Below are positions 3,685-42,604 of a DNA stretch of 43,412 bases, piece after piece. Where the stretch lies: positions 1-43,412 of IMG/VR virus record IMGVR_UViG_3300023443_000752. One strand, written 5' to 3'. Position 1 is the stretch's first letter, and each line of letters starts with the position of its first letter. A program made the position numbers and the translations under genes. This DNA is from a virus. The notes beneath the pieces were generated by a model that ran no database searches, was not told where the DNA came from, and was given only the letters and a program-made list of their open reading frames with translations.

Positions 3685-4034
3685 CCCACAAGCCTTCCAA
3701 ATACAGAAACGTCAAAACAGAAGTAGACGGCATTACCTTTGACTCAAAGCTGGAGGCAAAAAGATACAGCGAATTGAAGCTGCTTGAAAGGGCAAAAGAA
3801 ATATGGGGACTTAAGCTCCAGCCAGCTTTCCCACTTGAGGTAAAGCGGCCCTACGTAGAAGCCCAAGTTATAGGGAAATACAAAGCAGACTTTGCCTACC
3901 ATGACCCCTCACTAGATCGGTTAAACGATCTTGTGATTGAAGATACAAAGGGCATGAAAACCCCACTCTACAAATGGAAGAAGAAACACTTCGAGGCTCA
4001 GTACGGCATTTCCATAACGGAGATCACGAAGTGA
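3681..4034 (+). CDS. DUF1064 family putative PD-(D/E)XK nuclease
   Basis: A 117-residue protein matching DUF1064 over nearly its full length: KYRNVKTEVDGITFDSKLEA, KRYSELKLLE, YKADFAY and VIEDTKG. The acidic residue in FDSKLEA, the Asp of KADFAY and the E-D-x-K-like IEDTKG form a plausible PD-(D/E)XK metal-dependent nuclease site, resembling small phage endonucleases and junction-resolving enzymes. The likely role is DNA processing during replication, recombination or host DNA degradation. The family match is strong; the activity is inferred. Its TGA overlaps the GTG start of the next gene. Confidence 0.85.
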   Translation: MTHKPSKYRNVKTEVDGITFDSKLEAKRYSELKLLERAKEIWGLKLQPAFPLEVKRPYVEAQVIGKYKADFAYHDPSLDRLNDLVIEDTKGMKTPLYKWKKKHFEAQYGISITEITK

Positions 4035-4360
4035 CCAAATGGACCGAAGATGAAATTGAAACGGTTCGCATAATGGCCGCTCTTGATTGCTCAACGGCCA
4101 AGATTGCCGAAGCCTTGCCGGGGCGCTCATCTAATTCTGTGATTGGTTGTTGTCATAGAAATAATATTTCTCTTCGGAAGAAATACGCCAGTACACCATT
4201 TACCAATGACGAAAGAACCATGATATTTGAAATGGGGCAAGATGGCTCATCCATTATGCAAATTGCTCTAGTAGTAGGGCGCTCTTACCCCGCTATCAGT
4301 AAATATTTGCGCGTTAACTTTGGTGGCATCAAAGCCATTCAACGCCGGGCTGAATTATGA
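4031..4360 (+). CDS. Double-HTH protein with GcrA-like N-terminus
   Basis: A 109-residue protein. The start is GTG 4031, overlapping the previous stop (GTGA); no ATG fits the conserved part. Residues 3-47 (KWTEDEIETVRIMAAL, then SSNSVIGCCHRNNISLRK) align with the DNA-binding domain of GcrA and with the next gene. A second helix-turn-helix-like unit follows (FTNDERTMIFEMGQDGSS, then SYPAISKYLR). The zinc-like C-terminal sigma-contacting part of GcrA is missing. It may be a tandem-duplicated, re-purposed DNA binder that competes with or modulates GcrA at target promoters; that is inference. Confidence 0.7.
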   Translation: MTKWTEDEIETVRIMAALDCSTAKIAEALPGRSSNSVIGCCHRNNISLRKKYASTPFTNDERTMIFEMGQDGSSIMQIALVVGRSYPAISKYLRVNFGGIKAIQRRAEL

Positions 4361-4749
4361 CTTGGGAACGCTGGACCGAAGAAAATGTAATTACATTGAG
4401 GAAATTATGGCGTGATGGTTTGTCCGCGTCCCAAATTGCAAGAGAAATGAAAGTGCCAACCCGTAATGCTGTGATTGGCAAGATACATAGACTGGGTTTG
4501 TCGGGACGTGATAAAACCAAACAAGCCGATAAGGTCAATTTACCCAAACTCGAACCAAAGCCGGTGATTATCATAGCCAGGTCGGAACGGCCCTTGTCTC
4601 GTGGGCTACTACCTATGGCGGGCAAATGCAAATGGCCAACCGGCGATCCAAAAGACCCAGCTAATTATTTTACATGCGGTAGACAGTCACTAAGCAACGG
4701 GCCTTATTGTAAGACGCATCATGAGATTGCTTTCAGGGGGAGATCATGA
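4357..4749 (+). CDS. gcrA: GcrA family cell-cycle regulator
   Basis: A 130-residue protein. Residues 3-50 (WERWTEENVITLRKLWRDGL, SASQIAREMK, RNAVIGKIHRLGLSGR) are the GcrA DNA-binding helix-turn-helix. Residues about 88-126 (GKCKWPTGDPKD, FTCGRQ, GPYCKTHHEIAF) are the cysteine/histidine C-terminal segment that in Caulobacter GcrA contacts sigma-70. The family recruits RNA polymerase to promoters carrying CcrM-methylated GANTC sites. The protein is shorter than host GcrA (roughly 170 residues) because its linker is short, but both functional ends are present. It could redirect host transcription or time phage transcription to the cell cycle. It overlaps both neighbours by ATGA. Confidence 0.92.
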   Translation: MTWERWTEENVITLRKLWRDGLSASQIAREMKVPTRNAVIGKIHRLGLSGRDKTKQADKVNLPKLEPKPVIIIARSERPLSRGLLPMAGKCKWPTGDPKDPANYFTCGRQSLSNGPYCKTHHEIAFRGRS

Positions 4750-6655: not shown

Positions 6656-7551
6656 CCCTCTATGATCATGCCGATCTGACACAGCACCAGAAGCGCAGCG
6701 TATTACGGGAAATGCGCGGCCTAGAAATTAATGAGCTAGAGCGCAAGAAAGCCGTTCATAAGGCTAAATACGAATCATTAGTCATACGCCAAGAAGCTCT
6801 TACTGAAGTGCTCGAATGGGCGAAAGCTGAGGCCAAACTAGAGCGAGCAGTTACAAGTCGTCTACATTATCTGTTGGACGATATAAGACGTGGCCGTGTT
6901 TTTTGGGGATCACCAGATTCAGAGGATAAGGATAACGTTGTAAGTTCGGTGTGGGCAACGGTAAATCTTCTTGAGACCCAAACCTTTGTAATTCAGCACG
7001 ATTGGGCTGGGGCGCTGTCAGGCGCTGGTGATTTTGATGCTGGCGAATTTCACCTACCTGCCGATCCCGTAGTGTTTGAAATGCGGCTTTCTGGACGCCA
7101 TACAATTGTGCTGATCGGCAATGATCCAAATACGAGCCTTGAGTTTGGTTATTTCGTAGAAACTAAGCACGGGTGGGTCGCAAGAGGCCCAGAGCCTTGC
7201 GATCTGTCTCTAGTAAATGATGATCACATCTTTGCCTGGTCACAAATCCGCGCCGTTTGTATTGCCTTGGACGCTGAAGTTGCTAGTACAGAAACCATCC
7301 GCGCTCCACATAAGCTCAATCATGCCCGTGAAAAACGTGGGGCACTACCAATTAGAGATTATCATGTAGTGAACCTTGCAAATTGTAGCCGGGCTATCTC
7401 TTTAGGAGTTTCAGATGAAACTCGCAGGAAGGTTCGTTTGCACTTTCGCCGTGGTCATTGGCGACACTTTGTAAATCATAAAACTTGGATCAAGTGGACC
7501 CTGGTTGGTGATCCTGACCTTGGTTTTATTGATAAGGAATACCGCGTATGA
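6652..7551 (+). CDS. Conserved hypothetical with RRGHWRHF / DPDLGFIDKEYRV end
   Basis: A 299-residue protein. The start at 6652 overlaps the previous TGA (ATGA), and the frame upstream of it is only a shadow. Residues about 15-70 are charged coiled-coil helix (REMRGLEINELERKKAVHK). The C-terminus (HFRRGHWRHF, KTWIKWTLVGDPDLG, FIDKEYRV) matches a widespread phage/plasmid family of unknown role in which a 'RRGH-x-R' motif is followed by GDP-x-LG and YRV. The basic C-terminal domain suggests nucleic-acid binding. It is the largest early gene. Confidence 0.75.
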   Translation: MTLYDHADLTQHQKRSVLREMRGLEINELERKKAVHKAKYESLVIRQEALTEVLEWAKAEAKLERAVTSRLHYLLDDIRRGRVFWGSPDSEDKDNVVSSVWATVNLLETQTFVIQHDWAGALSGAGDFDAGEFHLPADPVVFEMRLSGRHTIVLIGNDPNTSLEFGYFVETKHGWVARGPEPCDLSLVNDDHIFAWSQIRAVCIALDAEVASTETIRAPHKLNHAREKRGALPIRDYHVVNLANCSRAISLGVSDETRRKVRLHFRRGHWRHFVNHKTWIKWTLVGDPDLGFIDKEYRV

Positions 7552-7895
7552 CCCTTTCCCAGAACTCAAGAGCTAAACCACAAACTCACCTGTCTGATAA
7601 TTTTCCTTCCGAAGATGCTTTGGAATGGGCGGTAAAAAACCAAGGCTTGAGTTTTGCCGAAGCGGAACACGAGGCTATAGGCTTTAGAAATTACTGGATT
7701 TCCGAGGGGAAACCTAAGGCGGACTGGATGGCGACATGGCGAAATCGTATCTGGAACGCCAAAAGACAAGGCCGGGTTGGTGGTGGCATGACCAAATTTA
7801 ATGGCACTGGCCCACCCAACCAATCTCAAAAAGATAACGCCGCCTTTGCTCAGGCTTTAGAAATGTTGCGGCGCAACGAAGGCAGGCTCTTATGA
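7548..7895 (+). CDS. Replication-initiator C-terminal-like (DnaT/O-type) protein
   Basis: A 115-residue protein. The segment FPSEDALEWAVKNQGLSFAE, then GFRNYWISEGKPKADWMATW and RNRIWNAK, is the pattern found at the C-terminus of many phage replication-initiator and primosome (DnaT/O-like) proteins, where it helps load helicase or bind ssDNA. The N-terminal DNA-binding part of such proteins is missing, so this is either a stand-alone domain or a cut-down initiator. It is the only gene in the window with a clear link to DNA replication. It overlaps both neighbours by four bases. Confidence 0.6.
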   Translation: MTLSQNSRAKPQTHLSDNFPSEDALEWAVKNQGLSFAEAEHEAIGFRNYWISEGKPKADWMATWRNRIWNAKRQGRVGGGMTKFNGTGPPNQSQKDNAAFAQALEMLRRNEGRLL

Positions 7896-11321: not shown

Positions 11322-11615
11322 ATGAGCAAGCTAGCCCATTCACACCAGCCGACCATGGACAGGATTGAGTATCAACGAGCTCTATGTGACCTTGGATTCA
11401 AGGAAGCCTTCGGCTTGGCTATGAGAAACCGACGTCATAATTTAGGTTACACGCAAGCAGATGTTGCCAAGCGCCTCGGCAAAAGCAGGACATCAATCAC
11501 CAACATGGAGCTAGGCCGTCAAGGCATGTCGCTGGAGACTGGTTTGAAGCTGATGAATATCCTGCATATGTCAGTTGGCGATCTCCTGGGCCAGAGAGAT
11601 ATAATGTACGTTTAG
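11322..11615 (+). CDS. XRE-family HTH regulator
   Basis: A 97-residue protein with a clear HTH-XRE domain at about 25-80: FGLAMRNRRHNLGYTQADVA, KRLGKSRTSITNMELGRQGM, SLETGLKLMNIL. It is preceded by AGGAAGGAA. It is separate from the early Cro-like protein at 2144 and sits at the boundary between early and late regions, so it may control the late switch. A terminator follows at 11683. Confidence 0.85.
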   Translation: MSKLAHSHQPTMDRIEYQRALCDLGFKEAFGLAMRNRRHNLGYTQADVAKRLGKSRTSITNMELGRQGMSLETGLKLMNILHMSVGDLLGQRDIMYV

Positions 11616-20863: not shown

Positions 20864-21260
20864 AGCTGTTGCAGCGAACATCCCAAATTCAGCGGACCAG
20901 AACAAATCCATTCGTGAGGCAGCGTTTGCCTCAATGAATATGACCATTGCGGATATTTCCGGGGCAAATGCTGATCATGTGACCGCGCCCTCAGAAGGCC
21001 GCGTTACAGCAATTCATATTGTGGTTTCCGGTGATCCAGGTGCGGCGACCCTTATAACCGTGAGCAATCTTACCAAAAACGTTACTATCGGCACCGCTAT
21101 TATTGCCAATTCATCGGCAGCTGGCGCTCGTGTGTCCGATCTGGATATTCCGAATGGAGCGGTGTCTGACAAGGATGTCATCAAGGCTCTTTCCAACGCC
21201 GCAGCTACACTAGCTGTTTCTGTGAATCTAACGCTTGAGATCGACCGGGCGCAAAGGTAA
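20856..21260 (+). CDS. Small structural-type protein, 134 aa
   Basis: A 134-residue beta-rich protein (VTAIHIVVSGDPGAATLITV; LDIPNGAVSDKDVIKALSNA; TLAVSVNLTLEIDRAQR). AAGGAG lies seven bases upstream. It resembles decoration or fibre-associated proteins. It stands directly before the large terminase and overlaps the glycosyltransferase by eight bases. Confidence 0.6.
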   Translation: MAEAVAANIPNSADQNKSIREAAFASMNMTIADISGANADHVTAPSEGRVTAIHIVVSGDPGAATLITVSNLTKNVTIGTAIIANSSAAGARVSDLDIPNGAVSDKDVIKALSNAAATLAVSVNLTLEIDRAQR

Positions 21261-22744
21261 TGACGTCGGGCCTTGCCGCCCTACAGGTTCTTGCCAAACA
21301 TGCCGAGCAAAACAAAATTGCCCGGCATATTCCCTATGGACATCCTGATACCCTCTGTCCTGATGGCAAGGTGTGGAAGGAGAAGTTCGAGGCTGGCGAA
21401 TGGCAGAAATGGTCTAACAAGCCGTGGCAATGGGACTTCTATGCTGCTGGCAAAGAAGCCATGCAGCGAATGCTTATATCGGCCAATCGCGTGGGAAAAA
21501 CCTATACTGAAGCCGATGAAGTTTCCTATCATATGACGGGTGAATACCCTGGTTGGTGGGTAGGACGAAGATTTGATTGTGCTACAAATGGGTGGACTGG
21601 CTCGCCCACTAATGAAACCTCTCGTGATATTGTTCAAAAGGAACTTCTGGGTCATCCCGATGAGAAGGGTGAATATGGCACAGGGACTATTCCGAAGCGA
21701 CTTATTACCAAGGTAAAAACACGACAGGCAGGCATTGGTGATGTCGTTGATTATATTCAGGTCAAACATGTCTCAGGCAAACTGTCACGATGCGTTTTCA
21801 AAACTTATGAGCAGGGTTGGCAGAAATGGCAGGGCACGGAACAACACTGGATTTGGCTTGATGAGGAACCCGATGATATCAAGATTTATACTGAAGGTAT
21901 CACCCGTTTAGCGACAACGGGCGGGATTCTGGTTGTAACTTATACGCCCTTAAAAGGTCGGACGGCGCTGCTGCAAAGCTTTGAAAACAACTCAAAAGCC
22001 ATTATTATTCGTGCCACCTGGGATGATGCTCCACACCTTACTGAAAAGGTGAAAGATGAACTAAAGGCCGGTTACCCGGATTGGGAACTGGAAACACGTA
22101 CTATGGGTGTTCCGATGATGGGTGAGGGCCGGGTGTTCCAGTTCTCGGAAGCCGATATCAAGGAAGATCCTATCGAAATACCGCCTCATTGGGCTCAAAT
22201 CCATGGCATTGATTTTGGCATTAACCATCCTTTTGGCGGTTTCAGATGGGCTTGGGACAGGGACCAGGATGTTATCCACGGCACATGGTGTTATCGGAAG
22301 CGGGATCAAACCCCACCACATCATGCTACGGCCTTAAACGGTGTCGCTAACAAAACCCAGTGGATACCTGTTGCATGGCCTCATGACGGCATGAACCGGG
22401 ATAAGGGCAAAGGCGTGACCTTGGCGCAAGTCTACCGCGACCATCAGGTCAATATGCTGGGGGTTTCTGCCAGATATGATGATAAGATTGGTGGCGGACA
22501 GGGCCAGGAGCAGATTATCATGGAGATGATTGAGCGTGCCCAGACAGGGCGGCTCAAGGTCTTTTCGACTTGTCATGAGTTCTGGGAGGAATTCAGGAAT
22601 TATCACAGAAAGGATGGAAAACTGGTGGACCGGGATGAAGATGTGCTCAAAGCTGCTTTCTATGGTCTGATGATGCTGAGATATGCTAGGCCCTACCATC
22701 AATTGCAAACCAACAAATCCCCATATACGAGGCCCATATTCTGA
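21260..22744 (+). CDS. terL: Terminase large subunit
   Basis: A 494-residue protein. ISANRVGKT (73-81) is the Walker A loop of phage packaging ATPases in its A-x-R-x-GKT form. WIWLDEEP (197-204) is Walker B with catalytic Glu. VTYTP (226-230) is the coupling motif. IHGIDFG (314-320) supplies the first metal-binding Asp of the RNase H-like nuclease, and the conserved Asp before LKAAFYGLMML closes it. The protein pumps DNA into the prohead and cuts it. The start overlaps the previous stop (TAATG). The GKT-to-nuclease spacing is normal, so the enzyme looks intact. Confidence 0.95.
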   Translation: MTSGLAALQVLAKHAEQNKIARHIPYGHPDTLCPDGKVWKEKFEAGEWQKWSNKPWQWDFYAAGKEAMQRMLISANRVGKTYTEADEVSYHMTGEYPGWWVGRRFDCATNGWTGSPTNETSRDIVQKELLGHPDEKGEYGTGTIPKRLITKVKTRQAGIGDVVDYIQVKHVSGKLSRCVFKTYEQGWQKWQGTEQHWIWLDEEPDDIKIYTEGITRLATTGGILVVTYTPLKGRTALLQSFENNSKAIIIRATWDDAPHLTEKVKDELKAGYPDWELETRTMGVPMMGEGRVFQFSEADIKEDPIEIPPHWAQIHGIDFGINHPFGGFRWAWDRDQDVIHGTWCYRKRDQTPPHHATALNGVANKTQWIPVAWPHDGMNRDKGKGVTLAQVYRDHQVNMLGVSARYDDKIGGGQGQEQIIMEMIERAQTGRLKVFSTCHEFWEEFRNYHRKDGKLVDRDEDVLKAAFYGLMMLRYARPYHQLQTNKSPYTRPIF

Positions 22745-23106
22745 TGAAATTCGAGACTTTTAAAGAGATTGCTGAGCGTGGAAAATTCATGCTGATTGGT
22801 AAGCGGAATCTTAAGGAAGGCGTAATCTATCTGGCTGAACGCACTCAAACCCATGAGGATTATCCCATTGCCTATTGGGAAACCATGTGGGCCATCTCTC
22901 GTGGAGCTGTGGATGTGGCGCAATTTGTAAATAACGACAAAGTTGCTACAGTGAACGGCATCCAAAGGCGTATAACGCAAGAGGAACGCATAGCCGACGC
23001 CATGGAAGGTGCGGAACAATGGATTGCTGACAATCTTGAGGCAGGCCGCTACGGTGATAAAATGAAGCCGGTAAACGGCACTGTTTTCCTTGGCTCAAGG
23101 GATTAA
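22744..23106 (+). CDS. Hypothetical protein between terminase and portal, 120 aa
   Basis: Not recognised. A 120-residue protein, start touching the terminase stop (TGATG). A helical end (QEERIADAMEGAEQWIADNL) follows a mixed first half (GKFMLIGKRNLKEGVIYLAE). Its place between terL and portal suggests a head-assembly role, but nothing in the sequence proves it. Confidence 0.65.
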   Translation: MKFETFKEIAERGKFMLIGKRNLKEGVIYLAERTQTHEDYPIAYWETMWAISRGAVDVAQFVNNDKVATVNGIQRRITQEERIADAMEGAEQWIADNLEAGRYGDKMKPVNGTVFLGSRD

Positions 23107-23109
23107 GAA

Positions 23110-24933
23110 ATGGCTCGAACGCCGGTTGAAAAAGCAAACCTCTCTGAAGAGGATTTTCGGTTTCTTGCCGAGTTCATAATTCTTGAGCAGTCCAAGCGTT
23201 CGCGCAGACGAGAAAAGATTGAAGAGGTTTGGAAGGAAATAGACCGCCAAGTTGCCATGATTCCACAACCGTCCAACATTGATACTGCCAGTGGCAGAAC
23301 CATTGAGGGCACTGAATGGATGCCTTTTGTGGAACAGCCCTTTCAGGCACAGACTTTAGAGGTTCTGGTTGCTGATTCCATGGCTCTTATTTTTCCTGAA
23401 GGAGAGGATTTCTTTGCTGCGCATTCCGATGTGACAGAGGAATTCTTGGTTGGAATTGATCCCAATGAATTATTCGGTGGCACGCGAAATCTAGAAGACT
23501 CTGCGGTTACTCAAGAACATATTAACGCTATTGTTGAGGCCGTGCATTTTCATTATCAAGGCCTTTACGATTACCGCAGTATGTGGAATCGGATATTGGT
23601 TGATTGCTTTAAGCGCGGTACGTTTGCTGCAAAATATGACATTGTGACTTCGGAACGATTTGATCATCAGACCAGGGGTGTTGTTCCCAAGAAACAAGAA
23701 TTTCCCATGCTTATTCCGTATCAAATGGACGACACCTATTTTGCGGACGAATTGGATGTGCTTCAGCATTCCAATGCTGTTGTGGGCAAGCAACCAATCC
23801 GAGTTTTTATGCAGGATTTGGGCGATCTTAAACTTGATGCGAAAAGAGGTGGAACCAAGGCGGGCTGGCGGCCTGGGGCGGTCGATACTATGGAGCCTCT
23901 TAGAGAAGGGGATGTGAAACTTCTGGAGTATGAAGGGGATTTGATTGTCCCCAGATCAGATATTAAACCTCTTTTTCTTGCTAATGTAACATTTACCGCT
24001 GTGATGGGTAAAACCAAGGCCCCGGACGGTAAAGAAAAAGATATGAGCACCATTATCCGGTTTAAGGAAAATGAGTTCGACCGCTCAACATTTGTAACGG
24101 GCGGTTATTCCCCGGAAGACGCGCGCTCACCCTATATGACATCTCCATTGGTCAAGGGAATGCCAATTCAAAAGGCTATGAGCGAAGCGTCAAATCGTAC
24201 CAGTCAAGCGGCCATTTTGCAGACCGAACCACCTATTGGGTACAATGATAACAACGCGGTTTTCTCGGCAAATCGGGGAGTTAACATTTCACCTCGTGCC
24301 CAAAATGCGACGATTGGTGAGATTCAAATCCTTCAAATTGGTGATGTTACGGCTCTTAGTGCCTATTATTTCTCACTTGTGGCACTTTATGAAAATGTGA
24401 CAGGTGTGAATCGTACCCGTCTTGGTGCTCAAACAAAAAGCCATCAGACCCGTTTTGCCGTAAATCAGGAGGCCCAGAGAGGTCAAGCCAGGACCATAGA
24501 TTATGTTCGGAGCGTAATGATCGGAGCCATGAGAACGTCTCTTGAGATCGAATGGATGATGATCAAAAAGGTATTTCCTGATAAGGGTGAGCAACGGATT
24601 TATGTTGGTAAACCATACGATATGTTCTTAAATATTCAGGCCAAGCATTTGCCAGATAGGGTGCTTTATGAGGTTAGGGGCGCTGCCGAACCATTTGTTG
24701 AGCAGGAAGAATTGCAGGCCAAAATTCAAGGCCTGACGTTGGCCTTACAGGTTGATCAGGCCCGGAAAGAGGCTGGTGAGGCCGGTATGGACCTTGAGGA
24801 ATTCCAGCGATTTGTCCTTCAAGAGAGTGGATTTACCGATGTGGATAAGTTCTTTGCGGAGCCAAATGCCCCAAGATCTCAGGGCGCACTTGGAGAACTT
24901 CCAGCGCAGCCCCAATTCCAAGAAGTTGGCTGA
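23110..24933 (+). CDS. Portal (head-tail connector) protein
   Basis: A 607-residue protein in the position and size of a podoviral portal, immediately after terL and before scaffold and capsid. The long helical N-terminus (LAEFIILEQSKRSRRREKIE) and the middle VNRTRLGAQTKSHQTRFAVN, then QRGQARTIDYVRSVMIGAMR, resemble the wing and stem helices of portals. The C-terminus is Gln-rich. It forms the dodecameric ring at the packaging vertex. The call rests on order and size more than on a signature motif. AAGGGA upstream supports the start. Confidence 0.8.
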   Translation: MARTPVEKANLSEEDFRFLAEFIILEQSKRSRRREKIEEVWKEIDRQVAMIPQPSNIDTASGRTIEGTEWMPFVEQPFQAQTLEVLVADSMALIFPEGEDFFAAHSDVTEEFLVGIDPNELFGGTRNLEDSAVTQEHINAIVEAVHFHYQGLYDYRSMWNRILVDCFKRGTFAAKYDIVTSERFDHQTRGVVPKKQEFPMLIPYQMDDTYFADELDVLQHSNAVVGKQPIRVFMQDLGDLKLDAKRGGTKAGWRPGAVDTMEPLREGDVKLLEYEGDLIVPRSDIKPLFLANVTFTAVMGKTKAPDGKEKDMSTIIRFKENEFDRSTFVTGGYSPEDARSPYMTSPLVKGMPIQKAMSEASNRTSQAAILQTEPPIGYNDNNAVFSANRGVNISPRAQNATIGEIQILQIGDVTALSAYYFSLVALYENVTGVNRTRLGAQTKSHQTRFAVNQEAQRGQARTIDYVRSVMIGAMRTSLEIEWMMIKKVFPDKGEQRIYVGKPYDMFLNIQAKHLPDRVLYEVRGAAEPFVEQEELQAKIQGLTLALQVDQARKEAGEAGMDLEEFQRFVLQESGFTDVDKFFAEPNAPRSQGALGELPAQPQFQEVG

Positions 24934-25099
24934 TTACTTACGCAATGGTATTGCGGCCTTGAAAAGATACGCTCCAGGCGGTAAAGATGGAATTAATGAA
25001 GCTCAGGAATGGGCTTATTACTCCGGTAAACTTGACGGCGCTGATGAAGTGCTGAATGAGATATTCGGAAAAGAGGAACAGGCAGATAATGTCTCCTGA
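24866..25099 (+). CDS. Small head protein overlapping the portal, 77 aa
   Basis: GGAG (24858-24861) four bases before ATG 24866 sets a start inside the portal 3' end, in another frame (68-base overlap). The product is helical (MPQDLRAHLENFQRSPN, KKLADYLRNGIAALKRY, EAQEWAYYSGKLDGADEVLN). Short genes here are common in podoviral head modules. It also overlaps the next start by 11 bases. Confidence 0.65.
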   Translation: MPQDLRAHLENFQRSPNSKKLADYLRNGIAALKRYAPGGKDGINEAQEWAYYSGKLDGADEVLNEIFGKEEQADNVS

Positions 25100-25766
25100 A
25101 GAAACAACTCAAGCTGCTACTAATCCGGTCAATGGGCAGGGAACCCCTGCATCTGAGAACGTTGGTGAGCAGGCTAGCGAGCCCACACTTGATGACACTC
25201 TGAAGCAATATGCTGATGAGACAAAACATGGTGAGGCCGCGCCGCAACCGCCCCAACCGGGCGAGCAACAACCTCCTGCGCAAACAGGAACTCCGGCGTT
25301 ACAGATTGACCCAAATGAGTTTGCAGCCCTTAAAGCTGCTGCTCAAGAAGTGCAAGCACAGCAACTGAGAGATACTGTTGCTGCCGCAGCAGTTAAAATG
25401 CGCGAAGTGGGCGGTGATGCCCTCAACATCTACGATAATCAGGCTTTAGAGGATGCGCTTAACGGCGCGGCTCAGCGTGATCCGAGGGTGGCCGTCGCAT
25501 TCGCTCAGCGTATTTCAAATCCTTCGGGTTGGAATGATGTTGTTTCGGCTGTTGGGCGTAATCTTGTGCAACGGGCATCTCAAATTGCCGATCCTGGTTT
25601 AACAGCAGATAGGGCTACGGCTCGCGCATCCGGTCAGGGCATATCACCCACGACCGGCGAGAAAACAGGCTCTTGGGCAGATGATTGGAATTCAATCTCT
25701 GGAGAGGAGCGCTTGAAACGAATGAAAGAGCACGGGTACGATCCCAATAAGCAATTCATCGTATAA
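25089..25766 (+). CDS. Putative scaffolding protein
   Basis: A 225-residue protein; ATG 25089 begins MSPEETTQAATNPVNGQ. The first 80 residues are Gln/Pro/Glu-rich and disordered, then long Ala-rich helices (FAALKAAAQEVQAQQLRDTV, AAAAVKMREVGGDALN), and a basic C-terminal patch (LKRMKEHGYDPNKQF). This make-up and its place just before the capsid gene are typical of scaffolding proteins, which shape the prohead and are then lost. Confidence 0.75.
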   Translation: MSPEETTQAATNPVNGQGTPASENVGEQASEPTLDDTLKQYADETKHGEAAPQPPQPGEQQPPAQTGTPALQIDPNEFAALKAAAQEVQAQQLRDTVAAAAVKMREVGGDALNIYDNQALEDALNGAAQRDPRVAVAFAQRISNPSGWNDVVSAVGRNLVQRASQIADPGLTADRATARASGQGISPTTGEKTGSWADDWNSISGEERLKRMKEHGYDPNKQFIV

Positions 25767-25801
25767 GGAGTTTCGCCGGTCACGCATAAGGATGTGTGAC
25801 C

Positions 25802-26869
25802 ATGGTTTCACAAATTACCGACACTCCAATTCTGACGCAGCCTATCAACGTTGCGTTTCAGACCAACTTTCTGGCAAGGGCTTTGGCTCTTGCTCCGTAC
25901 TTCATCGGCTCAAAGCCCGGTGTAATCAATAGCCATAGTGGTACGTTTACCATCTCATGGCGGCGTATCGAGAACGTCACTCCGACTATAACCGCGCTTA
26001 CGGAATTGAACGGCAATGTTGCATTTCCAACGCGGGATTCAATCGTTCCTTCAACCACGAATGTTCAGGCCACATTGCTTAAATTTGGTCAGTATTTCGT
26101 GGTCAACGAAGAAGCTGATTTAATCAACTTCAATGGGCAGACGCAGGAACTTATTGATGTTTTGGCAACCTCCGGTGGCCGTTCCCTCAATTTCTTGCAG
26201 CGTAATGAACTTGAAGACAATGCCACGGCCATTCTTGCTGCTGGTGCGGCTTCAGCTACAGCAATTGTCACTAAACTTTCAAGGAATGATATCCGTAATG
26301 CGGTAAATACCCTTGATCGTAATGTGGCGCTACATTTCACTCCGATCACTACGGGAAGCCAAAATGTGGGCACCACGCCCATGCGGCCTTCGTATTGGGG
26401 TCTTTGCCATCCGGATGTGGAGCAGGATATTCGTGATATGTCCGGCTTTATTGCGGCAGAATCCTATGCCGGTCAAACCCAGACCGCGACTGGTGAATTT
26501 GGAGCTGTAGGCGGTGTGCGCTTCCTTGTTAGCTCTGATGCCACGGTTGACCTTGAAGGTGGTGGGACTTCGACGGGAACCGGCTTGCGTACAGGTGGTA
26601 ATACCAAGGTAGATAACTATCCTACGGTGATCATGGGCATGAATGCTCATGGCTCTGTGGGCTTGGATACCGCCCATGTTCAGGAAGTTTATCGTGCTGG
26701 CGATGATCTTCCAGGCATGATAATGATTTCAACTCCCAAGGGTTCTGCCGGTGCGGCTGATCCGTTTCAGGAGTTGATGACATTGGCTTGGAAATCCTGG
26801 CACGCGCCAAAGATTTTGAACGGGGACTGGGTTCGTACTATTATCTCCGGTGCAAGCCTGCTTACCTAA
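25802..26869 (+). CDS. Major capsid protein, N4-gp56-like
   Basis: A 355-residue protein. ATG 25802 follows AAGGA by nine bases; GTG 25796 is too close. The order fits the N4-gp56 capsid family, an HK97-type fold: FQTNFLARALALAPY, SGTFTISWRRIEN, TLLKFGQYFVVNEEADLINF, ATSGGRSLNFLQRNELE, and PSYWGLCHPDVEQDIRDM. It builds the shell. It is followed by a perfect hairpin, as often seen after very highly expressed capsid genes. Confidence 0.9.
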   Translation: MVSQITDTPILTQPINVAFQTNFLARALALAPYFIGSKPGVINSHSGTFTISWRRIENVTPTITALTELNGNVAFPTRDSIVPSTTNVQATLLKFGQYFVVNEEADLINFNGQTQELIDVLATSGGRSLNFLQRNELEDNATAILAAGAASATAIVTKLSRNDIRNAVNTLDRNVALHFTPITTGSQNVGTTPMRPSYWGLCHPDVEQDIRDMSGFIAAESYAGQTQTATGEFGAVGGVRFLVSSDATVDLEGGGTSTGTGLRTGGNTKVDNYPTVIMGMNAHGSVGLDTAHVQEVYRAGDDLPGMIMISTPKGSAGAADPFQELMTLAWKSWHAPKILNGDWVRTIISGASLLT

Positions 26870-36357: not shown

Positions 36358-36600
36358 ATGAGTGCATTAGACAATATCGCAACCTCGTTTTGGGCTGTGG
36401 AAGACAACATAAGAAGTTGCATCGACAAGCTTCCGGCAGCGTCTTCCGAGTGCGATCTTACATCCGAAGAAGAAGCTGAAGTTCTGGATGCGTTCGAAGA
36501 CGTTAAAAACAAGTTTGATGATCTTCACGAGCGTGTAAACGAAATCCTCAATGGGCACAGCGTTCCAATTCCGGCGTCTGGGGGTGGAAATAAAACGTGA
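36358..36600 (+). CDS. Small acidic protein, 80 aa
   Basis: An 80-residue, acidic, helical protein (TSEEEAEVLDAFEDVKNKFD, DLHERVNEIL) with a Gly-rich end. AAGGAGAG lies six bases upstream. It begins the late membrane-gene cluster. Function unknown; a fibre-associated or lysis-regulating role is possible. Confidence 0.6.
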   Translation: MSALDNIATSFWAVEDNIRSCIDKLPAASSECDLTSEEEAEVLDAFEDVKNKFDDLHERVNEILNGHSVPIPASGGGNKT

Positions 36601-37091
36601 TTGATGGTTACGCCTTAACATATCTGGCGTTCCTTCTTTTAACGTGTCTGGTGGCTCTTAAGTGGGGCCATCGGGCGCGTATCATGGGCGCAGCTCTTAT
36701 GACGGTCGCTTGGGTAATGACCATCCTGGCAAGGCCTATCGGAGCTGAAGCGCCTCCTCTTTCTTTTGCCGCAATCGACTTTATCAATGTCGTCCTGTTT
36801 TGTGTGATTGGTGGGTTTTATGACAGGACTTGGGCCATATGTGTGGCTGGACTTCATATCGGAATGCTGCTCACGCATTTCGCATTTGCAACATTGCTTA
36901 TTCACAACCAATTCTTGTATCTTTCTATTCTGGCGGCATTAAGCTACGTTGCTCTATCTATGATTGCCGTGCCGCCTTTATGGAACAGGATATTAGGCCG
37001 TGGCACTAGAGATATGGATTATCGGGATTTTGTGCATCTTGGCTATTGGCATTCACTCTTTGGCGATTCAGAAAAGAAAACGCCGGAATGA
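36597..37091 (+). CDS. Multi-pass membrane protein, 164 aa
   Basis: GTG 36597 overlaps the previous stop (GTGA). At least four hydrophobic helices are visible (YLAFLLLTCLVALKW; IMGAALMTVAWVMTILA; FINVVLFCVIGGFY; LLTHFAFATLLI, then YLSILAALSYVALSMIAV), followed by a charged tail. It could be a holin-like or superinfection-exclusion membrane protein. The cluster position near the end of the virion block favours lysis, which is inference. Confidence 0.65.
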   Translation: MIDGYALTYLAFLLLTCLVALKWGHRARIMGAALMTVAWVMTILARPIGAEAPPLSFAAIDFINVVLFCVIGGFYDRTWAICVAGLHIGMLLTHFAFATLLIHNQFLYLSILAALSYVALSMIAVPPLWNRILGRGTRDMDYRDFVHLGYWHSLFGDSEKKTPE

Positions 37092-37339
37092 CCGAAAAGA
37101 AAAAAACCAAAGAAGATTACGAAACCGAAGAGGCTCTTAAGAAGGCTATTTCCGATTATCTGATTGATCATGGTGCCCCGGAAAATCAGGTGGGTGATAT
37201 CATGCGTATGATGGTATGGCAGGCAAAAGTCGCCATCAGAGGCCAGAACCTGATTATCGGGTTTATTCTTGCCATTATGGGCACTGTCGTCTTGGCTGCT
37301 ATATTAGCCATGCGGGATATATTCCGCACTACGGGATAG
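37088..37339 (+). CDS. Single-pass membrane protein, 83 aa
   Basis: ATG 37088 overlaps the previous stop (ATGA). A charged helical N-terminus (KKTKEDYETEEALKKAISDY) is followed by one transmembrane segment (LIIGFILAIMGTVVLAAILA). Lysis or membrane role inferred from place and topology. Confidence 0.65.
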   Translation: MTEKKKTKEDYETEEALKKAISDYLIDHGAPENQVGDIMRMMVWQAKVAIRGQNLIIGFILAIMGTVVLAAILAMRDIFRTTG

Positions 37340-37358
37340 TTTGGAATGGTCCTAAAAA

Positions 37359-37374
37359 TGTTTCACGTGAAACA
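37359..37374. promoter_or_regulatory. parS: Perfect chromosomal-type parS site (ParB binding site)
   Basis: The 16 bases TGTTTCACGTGAAACA are a perfect palindrome and match the consensus parS site bound by chromosomal ParB across bacteria, including alphaproteobacteria. The site lies in the intergenic gap between 37339 and 37424. By chance an exact 16-mer is expected about once in 4.3 billion positions. No other copy or close match was seen. No ParA or ParB gene is present in the window, so the ligand would have to be the host's own ParB. Confidence 0.85.
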
Positions 37375-37423
37375 ATAGTCTGCCTGTCACAAAGTCAGGA
37401 CGAAGAACTAGAGAGTGGACAAG

Positions 37424-37612
37424 ATGACGACGAAACGACCGACAAAACAGGAAGTCCAGAAGGAGATGGAACGGATTCTTCAGGACCAACTGAAACGGCA
37501 GTTTTTGCGTCCGATCCCGGAACAGCAATTGATAAAGCCGCAAAATCGAGAGACCGAAGAAAAGTGGGCGGGCGCGGATACAAGTACCCCTGGGCGACAG
37601 ATCTGTGATTAA
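37424..37612 (+). CDS. Small basic protein after parS, 62 aa
   Basis: MTTKRPTKQEVQKEMERIL begins a charged helix; the rest is Gln/Arg/Pro-rich. I prefer this frame over the overlapping acidic one (37216-37608) because of the plausible start and helical layout. Not recognised. Being right after the parS site, it could mediate something related, but there is no sequence evidence. Confidence 0.45.
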   Translation: MTTKRPTKQEVQKEMERILQDQLKRQFLRPIPEQQLIKPQNRETEEKWAGADTSTPGRQICD

Positions 37613-37682
37613 GATCTACCCGCTATTGCGCATGAGTTGAATAAAGGCAATAATGTGACCATCACGATAAAGGATTGTGATT

Positions 37683-37862
37683 ATGCTCCAAACAATGTTC
37701 TCAGCTAAAGCCGCCAAGGCCTGGATAGCTGCGGGGGCTGCTGGGGCCTCCACCAGCACCCTTCTGGCGTCTCAGTCCTCTGACACTCTGGTTATCGTCT
37801 TGGGCACTCTCGGGGCTGCTCTGGTGGCTTTTGTCACAACTTACGCCATTCCCAATGCTTGA
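37683..37862 (+). CDS. Holin-like small membrane protein, 59 aa
   Basis: ATG 37683 follows AAAGGA. The product has two Ala-rich hydrophobic stretches (AWIAAGAAGASTSTLLA; TLVIVLGTLGAALVAFVTTY) and no charged tail. It resembles small phage holins, which open the inner membrane at lysis. No endolysin is recognised nearby. Confidence 0.55.
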   Translation: MLQTMFSAKAAKAWIAAGAAGASTSTLLASQSSDTLVIVLGTLGAALVAFVTTYAIPNA

Positions 37863-37874
37863 AGGAGCCGGAAG

Positions 37875-38366
37875 ATGATATTTCAGAAGATATTGGGTGC
37901 TGTGCTGCTCTGCACAATGATGGTGGGGTGTGCTGGTTTTGAGGCTGCGATTGAACATGACGCAAAGCACATTGAAATAACAGATAGTGGTCTTGTGGTG
38001 CCTCTCAGCCCTGATCCCGGTGGTGCGGCTCTTATCATTGGCACAAGACGGATAAGCATTGATTCAGTCCCGGTTTTCACTGAAACCGAAATGGAGAAAG
38101 TAACTGTGACTGAAACTGCTCTTGATGGGACTACAATTGTAACCGTGACTGAAACTGGTTTACTTACGACGGAATTTCAAAGTCTTTATGAGGAATATGA
38201 TCCGGTCACAGGCAATCTCATCAACAGGGTAATTGATACTATTTCCTTCTGCAATGATACAAACTTGAATGCTGAAACCCCCGGCACAGGTGGTGATTCG
38301 TCTACCGTTGCCCGTACATCCTCAGGAAATGCGGCCACAGACAGATGCCAACAACCAACGGAATAA
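37875..38366 (+). CDS. Predicted lipoprotein, 163 aa
   Basis: The N-terminus (IFQKILGAVLLCTMMVGC) is a lipoprotein signal with a lipobox ending at Cys19. The mature part is beta-rich with a repeated TVTETALDG / TVTETGLL unit and ends in Ser/Thr-rich sequence. It is likely anchored to the outer membrane. It could be the outer-membrane partner of the next gene in a spanin-like pair, although the usual order is reversed. Confidence 0.65.
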   Translation: MIFQKILGAVLLCTMMVGCAGFEAAIEHDAKHIEITDSGLVVPLSPDPGGAALIIGTRRISIDSVPVFTETEMEKVTVTETALDGTTIVTVTETGLLTTEFQSLYEEYDPVTGNLINRVIDTISFCNDTNLNAETPGTGGDSSTVARTSSGNAATDRCQQPTE

Positions 38367-38593
38367 CCTCTGCTCTCAGTCATCCTATTGTTAGCGGATT
38401 AGTGATTATTGCTGTTGTTGCCATGGCTGGATATAGCATCACTCACTATGTGCAGCATCAAATGGCAGCGGGAAGTGACGCTCGTATTGAAACTCTCGAA
38501 AATCAGATGGAAACCATGGACAGAAATTTATTCATCATTCAATGCAATCTTAAGATTATTCCAGAATGTCAGACTGACCTAGATACAAATTAG
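38345..38593 (+). CDS. Membrane-anchored coiled-coil protein, 82 aa
   Basis: ATG 38345 lies inside the end of the lipoprotein gene. A transmembrane segment (IVSGLVIIAVVAMAGYSITH) is followed by a coiled coil (DARIETLENQMETMDRNLFI) and two cysteines. This topology fits an inner-membrane spanin. It converges with the minus-strand operon: the two stop codons overlap by three bases, leaving no terminator between the operons. Confidence 0.6.
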   Translation: MPTTNGITSALSHPIVSGLVIIAVVAMAGYSITHYVQHQMAAGSDARIETLENQMETMDRNLFIIQCNLKIIPECQTDLDTN

Positions 38594-42297: not shown

Positions 42298-42604
42298 TAC
42301 CGTTCTCCAGGGTCTTGCGGGCAACCTTGCCACCATCATCATCAAGCGCTTCTGTTGGTCTGTGCAATGGTATTGTGCAGCCGGGGACAGACGCATCACC
42401 TGCTGTATCGTGTTCCCATTCATCCCGGTAAAACTCCAACGCCTCCCGCAGTTTCGTGTTCTCGGTCTGTGCGGCTTCAAGGGCGTCTGCGGCCGCAGAC
42501 AATATAACTGGCGCCACTAAAACTGCACCACTTCGTGTGCCCTGGCGGCTTGCTCGTAACCGCTTCCGCAGCCGTTCCACTAGCGCTGTGTCATCGTCAG
42601 TCAT
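42290..42604 (-). CDS. Hypothetical 104-aa protein
   Basis: ATG 42604 begins MTDDDTALVERLRKRLRAS; an upstream ATG in the same frame lies inside the SSB-like gene and is less likely. A basic helix is followed by a coiled coil (AAADALEAAQTENTKLREAL, EFYRDEWEHD) and a Cys/Pro-containing tail. The MTDD ... ALVERLR start is seen in many phage proteins of unknown function. Confidence 0.65.
   Translation of the reverse strand: MTDDDTALVERLRKRLRASRQGTRSGAVLVAPVILSAAADALEAAQTENTKLREALEFYRDEWEHDTAGDASVPGCTIPLHRPTEALDDDGGKVARKTLENGND

Follow-up and report, generated by a model that had tools for sequence, protein, structure and literature searches.

Orphan chromosomal parS site in a podovirus-like phage and its recurrence across unrelated phages

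The genome of a podovirus-like phage, analysed here over its full length of 43,412 bp (the window), carries a single exact copy of the bacterial chromosomal centromere site parS, which lies in a short gap between late genes and which the ParB protein of the host would very probably bind. Exact copies of the same 16-mer recur across annotated phages and viral contigs, and this recurrence of orphan parS reflects selection and not accident; given its breadth, the site in the 43,412-bp phage is itself very unlikely to be an accident.

An exact parS site in an intergenic gap

Scanning the whole 43,412-bp genome, we found TGTTTCACGTGAAACA at positions 37359–37374, a perfect 16-bp palindrome with zero mismatches to the parS consensus. 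The second-best parS-like match in the genome, at 15886, has 3 mismatches, so that TGTTTCACGTGAAACA is present in single copy. These 16 bp are also the central 16 bp of GATGTTTCACGTGAAACATC, the DNA of the Caulobacter ParB DBD co-crystal (PMC7383237). A preliminary description of this genome had called the site an exact, fully palindromic chromosomal parS and had put its chance occurrence in 43 kb at about 1 in 100,000. Both statements hold, the computed expectation for exact matches in this genome lying between 1.1 × 10−5 (from base composition) and 1.5 × 10−5 (from a first-order Markov model).

The hexamer CACGTG occurs once in the genome, at the centre of TGTTTCACGTGAAACA, compared with expected counts of 9.8 (base composition) and 5.6 (a higher-order estimate). 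Because this phage genome is depleted of many palindromic hexamers, we downgraded this singularity from a proof of selection to weak support for it. One other perfect 16-bp palindrome, GTCTGCGGCCGCAGAC, is found at 42485–42500 in the early region.

The position of parS in an intergenic gap among late membrane genes, as described earlier, was likewise borne out, the site falling outside both of the ORFs that border a gap of 84 bp. The features of the genome that bear on the site are the following:

3974–4360, forward strand: second GcrA-like or D5-like regulator (PF07750 23.3 bits, below the cut-off of 26.9; phrog_323 E = 5e-11)
4357–4749, forward strand: GcrA homologue (PF07750 E = 5e-31)
7548–7895, forward strand: replication initiation or primosomal-type protein, C-terminal part (phrog_3992 E = 9e-8; phrog_1408 E = 2e-6)
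11322–11615, forward strand: XRE/Cro-CI-type HTH regulator of 97 aa (HTH_31 E = 6e-10; phage repressor/regulator PHROGs)
21260–26869, forward strand: terminase large subunit, portal and major capsid genes (PHROG matches; tblastn relatives)
36597–38593, forward strand: small membrane- or lipoprotein-like late genes, a putative lysis cassette (from sequence features)
37046–37339, forward strand: short upstream ORF with a membrane segment (97 aa from a TTG; 83 aa if begun at the ATG at 37088)
37340–37423, no strand: intergenic gap holding parS (84 bp between two small late ORFs)
37359–37374, no strand: parS-type site TGTTTCACGTGAAACA (exact match, palindrome, identity to the co-crystal DNA)
37424–37612, forward strand: downstream ORF of 62 aa (ATG at 37424, 50 bp past the site; weak phrog_26269 match)

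The upstream ORF had no match in Pfam or PHROG, and phrog_26269, the family weakly matched by the downstream ORF, is of unknown function. Within the 84-bp gap we found neither promoter-like nor terminator-like sequence and no recognisable DNA from a host origin region. The RNA structure of the gap was unremarkable, with a fold no better than that of shuffled sequences, and with no terminator at the site we rejected its reading as a terminator or RNA hairpin.

A podovirus-like phage with a probable alphaproteobacterial host

The record has direct terminal repeats of 144 bp, indicating that the genome is probably complete. As judged from its terminase, portal-type adaptor and capsid genes, the phage is podovirus-like. 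Its closest annotated relatives are distant: the terminase is about 44% identical to those of Rhizobium and Pelagibacter phages, and the capsid protein is 39% identical to that of an uncultured podovirus, while ten relatives from IMG/VR have capsid identities of 47–55%. No closer relatives were found with the 828-aa virion protein or with the portal, and megablast of the genome against annotated phages returned no match.

Profile searches of the phage genome gave no match to ParB_N (PF02195) or to the ParA-type ATPase AAA_31 (PF13614), in agreement with the earlier claim that the phage encodes neither ParA nor ParB, and no match to the tyrosine integrase family (PF00589). The 97-aa HTH regulator has a marginal HTH_ParB match (23.0 bits against a cut-off of 22.6), and this match and the palindromic form of the site could be read to mean that parS is an operator for a phage or host factor other than ParB, such as this XRE-type regulator itself. 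We regard that reading as exceedingly improbable, because the protein scores far better as an XRE regulator (HTH_31, 39.7 bits) and lacks the ParB_N CTPase domain, and because the exact 16-mer, the core of a known ParB site, is found in many unrelated phages whose regulators would not converge on it.

The preliminary description had also proposed that related phages be searched for the same site in the same gap. None of the ten IMG/VR relatives or of two annotated phages, all of them distant, contains it within 2 mismatches. Absence from all related phages is the outcome that the preliminary description had named as refuting, and it was seen in these twelve; they are mostly fragments, however, and no homology to the gap region is detectable in them, so that absence from relatives has little power to refute a function. 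We further considered and rejected the possibility that parS replaces a lost integrase, since near-full-length relatives without parS are also without PF00589.

ParABS is well studied in alphaproteobacteria and is essential in Caulobacter. The phage protein encoded at 4357–4749 belongs to the GcrA family by its PF07750 score (108.6 bits, over the curated cut-off of 26.9), and conservation of GcrA throughout the Alphaproteobacteria has been described (PMC9437464). Together with a capsid relative that sits in an alphaproteobacterial MAG, this homologue points to a probable alphaproteobacterial host, which would have a ParABS system of its own. The CcrM methylation motif GANTC is strongly avoided in the phage genome (59 seen, compared with about 169 expected from composition), in keeping with such a host. 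Two GcrA-like genes in fact adjoin at 3974–4749, one of them clear and one under the cut-off.

Host ParB had been named earlier as the likely binder of the site. The GcrA homologue, the MAG relative and the identity to the Caulobacter co-crystal DNA all support this proposal, and on this evidence from sequence we hold with high confidence that host ParB would bind the phage TGTTTCACGTGAAACA.

Orphan parS sites recur across phages

We searched two collections, IMG/VR and a set of 50,697 annotated-phage records, for the 16-mer and for control palindromes; for the annotated phages we used an N-padded 30-nt query, with which blastn reports exact 16-mers. The exact 16-mer was present in at least 120 IMG/VR contigs, compared with 0 for the control TGTCTTACGTAAGACA and 1 for the control ACAAAGTGCACTTTGT. 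Among annotated phages it was present in 286 of the 50,697 records (these being records and not independent events, with 87 Listeria records that are mostly related genomes), compared with 0 for ACAAAGTGCACTTTGT and 0 for TGTTTCATATGAAACA. In both collections, parS was thus more frequent than matched control palindromes, and from the IMG/VR counts chance would account for about 1% of these sites at most. A 20-mer, AATGTTTCACGTGAAACATT, was itself present in at least 120 IMG/VR contigs; of the first 120 parS contigs listed, 16 contain it, from which we extrapolate a total of roughly 900 or more parS contigs in IMG/VR.

These counts bear on whether the site in the 43,412-bp phage is a chance match or a leftover, without function, of origin-region DNA captured from a host. 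Such an origin would fit a single site that is absent from the sampled relatives, but it is set against an expectation of about 10−5 in this genome and a gap in which no host origin-region sequence is recognisable, and we consider it very unlikely.

The surroundings of the sites are also informative. At the positions flanking the IMG/VR 16-mers, which were not selected for, A occurs at −1 in 61% and T at +1 in 53%, and the same flanking A…T is found in the Caulobacter ParB co-crystal DNA (PMC7383237); this symmetric preference argues that the 16-mers are not a chance set. By a simple ORF rule, 46% of 146 IMG/VR sites are intergenic, compared with about 10% of bases (p ~ 3e-29). In annotated phages, short intergenic gaps hold many of the sites, and a few, those of B103, Ranunculus, RobinRose and Quhwah, lie in genes.

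Carriers of the 16-mer include phages of Listeria, Microbacterium, Arthrobacter, Gordonia, Bacillus, Lactobacillus, Butyrivibrio, Vibrio and Roseobacter, as well as microviruses and an inovirus. In 17 diverse annotated parS phages we found no ParA match, and 15 of the 17 had no ParB_N match either, the others having one match over the cut-off and one weak match. Two or more sites within 2 mismatches were present in 13 of these 17 phages, nearly all of the sites keeping the CACGTG core; the phi29-like phage B103, for example, has one exact and one near-exact parS. Bajarodino virus 69 (PQ006099.1) shows five sites. Of the ten names that occur most often among parS-bearing annotated phages, none is Escherichia or Salmonella, which is suggestive of parS being missing from enterobacterial phages, whose hosts lack ParB.

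Among 44 large parS-positive IMG/VR records, ParB_N was absent from 40, and a terminase or portal gene was present in at least 25. Host DNA may be present among the IMG/VR parS contigs, short ones being the concern, and the hallmark genes in 25 of the 44 large records reduce this concern without removing it; we therefore give the annotated-phage set more weight.

The extended parS also occurs on plasmids, with 18 plasmid records in all matching it at 17–18 bp. One of these, the 4,603-bp C. glutamicum plasmid NC_004533.1, has one 18-bp extended parS at 2460–2477.

Candidate roles of the phage site

We propose that TGTTTCACGTGAAACA is a host chromosomal ParB loading site that would serve partition of the non-integrated phage genome, and for this statement, taken as a whole, we judge the case for and the case against to be evenly balanced. 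After injection and circularisation of the phage DNA, clamps of host ParB-CTP would load at TGTTTCACGTGAAACA and spread by sliding over one or two kilobases of the late region. Host ParA, and perhaps SMC, would then hold and move the phage DNA as if it were an origin region. The most likely gain would be that, until lysis, a non-integrated, low-copy genome stays tied to the nucleoid and is passed on to both daughter cells. A direct consequence would be that, as copy number rises, the phage competes with the chromosome for ParB and disturbs host segregation.

We favour this partition reading, with which the absence of a tyrosine integrase match, the repressor-type regulators, a gene of replication-initiation type and the precedents of phi29 and SGI1 agree. 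In Caulobacter, a plasmid-borne parS can be segregated instead of the chromosome, up to lethality, and ParB is reported to spread only about 2 kb from one site, the clustering of sites being thought important (PMC5815017); a single site may thus partition DNA weakly. Against partition stand the absence of the site from all twelve sampled relatives and the finding that near-full-length relatives that have no parS are missing an integrase as well. Many parS phages, moreover, fall in groups regarded as virulent (for example, Pecentumvirus and the phi29-like phages), in which inheritance by daughter cells would meet no obvious need.

The occurrence of orphan parS in phages regarded as virulent fits ParB titration, which is the first rival to tethering or partition. 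In this alternative, the many phage copies present during lytic growth would act as a decoy, soaking up host ParB (and ParA or SMC) and stalling segregation and division, so that the cell would be kept in a condition that benefits the phage, with the phage GcrA homologue acting in the same way. Multicopy parS plasmids impair or kill Caulobacter at a cost that tracks ParB affinity (PMC5815017); this toxicity supports partition equally, as it was attributed to mis-segregation in which the plasmid, and not the chromosome, is moved. Phages with multiple sites are also in line with a decoy. Bacillus phage vB_BcoS-136 has 4 sites, the inovirus bajarodino virus 6 (PQ006149.1) has six exact parS sites in 5.9 kb, and the 116,662-bp record IMG/VR 3300037518_000322 (G041), which has terminase and portal genes and no ParB_N match, has 24 parS-like sites, most of them TGTTTCACGTGGAACA. 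In Vibrio phage phi 3 (KP280063.1), exact parS lies in the terminal repeats beside the A1 and A2 genes, and its four sites are two sites repeated in those repeats.

The pairing of parS with GcrA is a further hint, and a hint only, in favour of titration. The viral record G029 encodes a terminase and a tail fibre and has parS at 6692–6707, with a GcrA gene about 0.5 kb away; among the records tested, GcrA and parS are both clearly present only in G029 and in the 43,412-bp phage. With two such records among those tested, we rejected a GcrA–parS linkage as a rule and treat it as an anecdote. Titration is countered by the weakness of one site per genome until replication is advanced, and we rate a ParB decoy as possible, though rather unlikely.

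The site is surrounded by small membrane genes of the late region and precedes a start codon by 50 bp, as local regulation would lead one to expect, and several other phage sites are found 15–110 bp before the next start codon. Host ParB would in this case nucleate at parS, spread over the late or lysis genes and damp their transcription until it is diluted by phage copy number, so that the site would be an operator sensitive to copy number. A report on P. aeruginosa describes that more ParB potentiates repression of promoters adjoining parS3 and parS4 (PMC5521831), which is consistent with such a role. However, the gap in the 43,412-bp phage has no promoter-like sequence, and the genes beside parS are unrelated across phages (portal/protease, DNA polymerase/PurA, terminal repeats), with no common regulated gene visible. 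We consider local regulation unlikely, and partition remains the reading that we prefer.

Relation to known systems

The phage site is letter-for-letter identical over 16 bp to the chromosomal parS of the Caulobacter crescentus ParABS system, from which it differs in being a single copy, away from the host origin, on a record from which parA and parB are absent. P1, N15 and some mycobacteriophages have a complete ParABS, with their own ParA and ParB and a private parS. They resemble the 43,412-bp phage in having a centromere on the phage genome, whereas here the host-type site stands alone, with ParA and ParB_N absent.

Two systems come closer. Host Spo0J (ParB) is reported to entrap phi29 DNA in B. 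subtilis spores (Meijer 2005, as cited in PMC9437464), and phi29, like our phage, encodes no partition genes, its genome being handled by host ParB; here, too, a host-type parS is present. In contrast to the spore entrapment in a Gram-positive sporulating host, our phage has a GcrA homologue and a probable alphaproteobacterial host that does not sporulate. SGI1 is a mobile element without its own ParAB that carries the parS of another replicon: its parS mimics bind the ParB of an IncC plasmid, whose ParABS then partitions the element, and they stabilise SGI1 and destabilise the plasmid (PMC10954446). SGI1, however, is an integrative mobilizable element whose mimicry of a plasmid centromere was shown by experiment, whereas the present case concerns a chromosomal centromere in a virus and is drawn from sequence. 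Finally, phiCbK-like Caulobacter phages encode GcrA homologues (PMC3556154) and so share a GcrA family protein in an alphaproteobacterial phage, although they are of an unrelated phage type; the paper on these phages makes no mention of parS or ParB.

The use of another replicon's ParB by a phage or mobile element is thus already known, and what is new is the broader pattern of orphan parS. The literature searched, in which subscription journals are thinly covered, yielded no general account of orphan parS in phages.

Discussion

Our results raise the possibility that an orphan host centromere is a widespread, convergent phage strategy, which in alphaproteobacterial cases can be paired with a phage GcrA; we incline neither towards nor away from this generalisation. 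The same even judgement applies to its full span, in which myo-, sipho- and podoviruses, inoviruses and microviruses with hosts from Listeria to Roseobacter would all have their DNA treated as an origin by host ParB, ParA and SMC. The census includes culturable phages that have the site, among them Bacillus phage B103, Ruegeria phage DSS3P8 and Arian.

If this is true, the bacterial chromosome centromere would be a common target of viral hijacking, of which only single cases such as phi29 and Spo0J are known from the literature searched. Phages with neither an integrase nor partition genes would gain a route to persist through division of their host, and phages may also have in the site a means to jam host segregation. 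A phage with both parS and GcrA, such as the one described here, would seize control of both chromosome segregation and the cell cycle.
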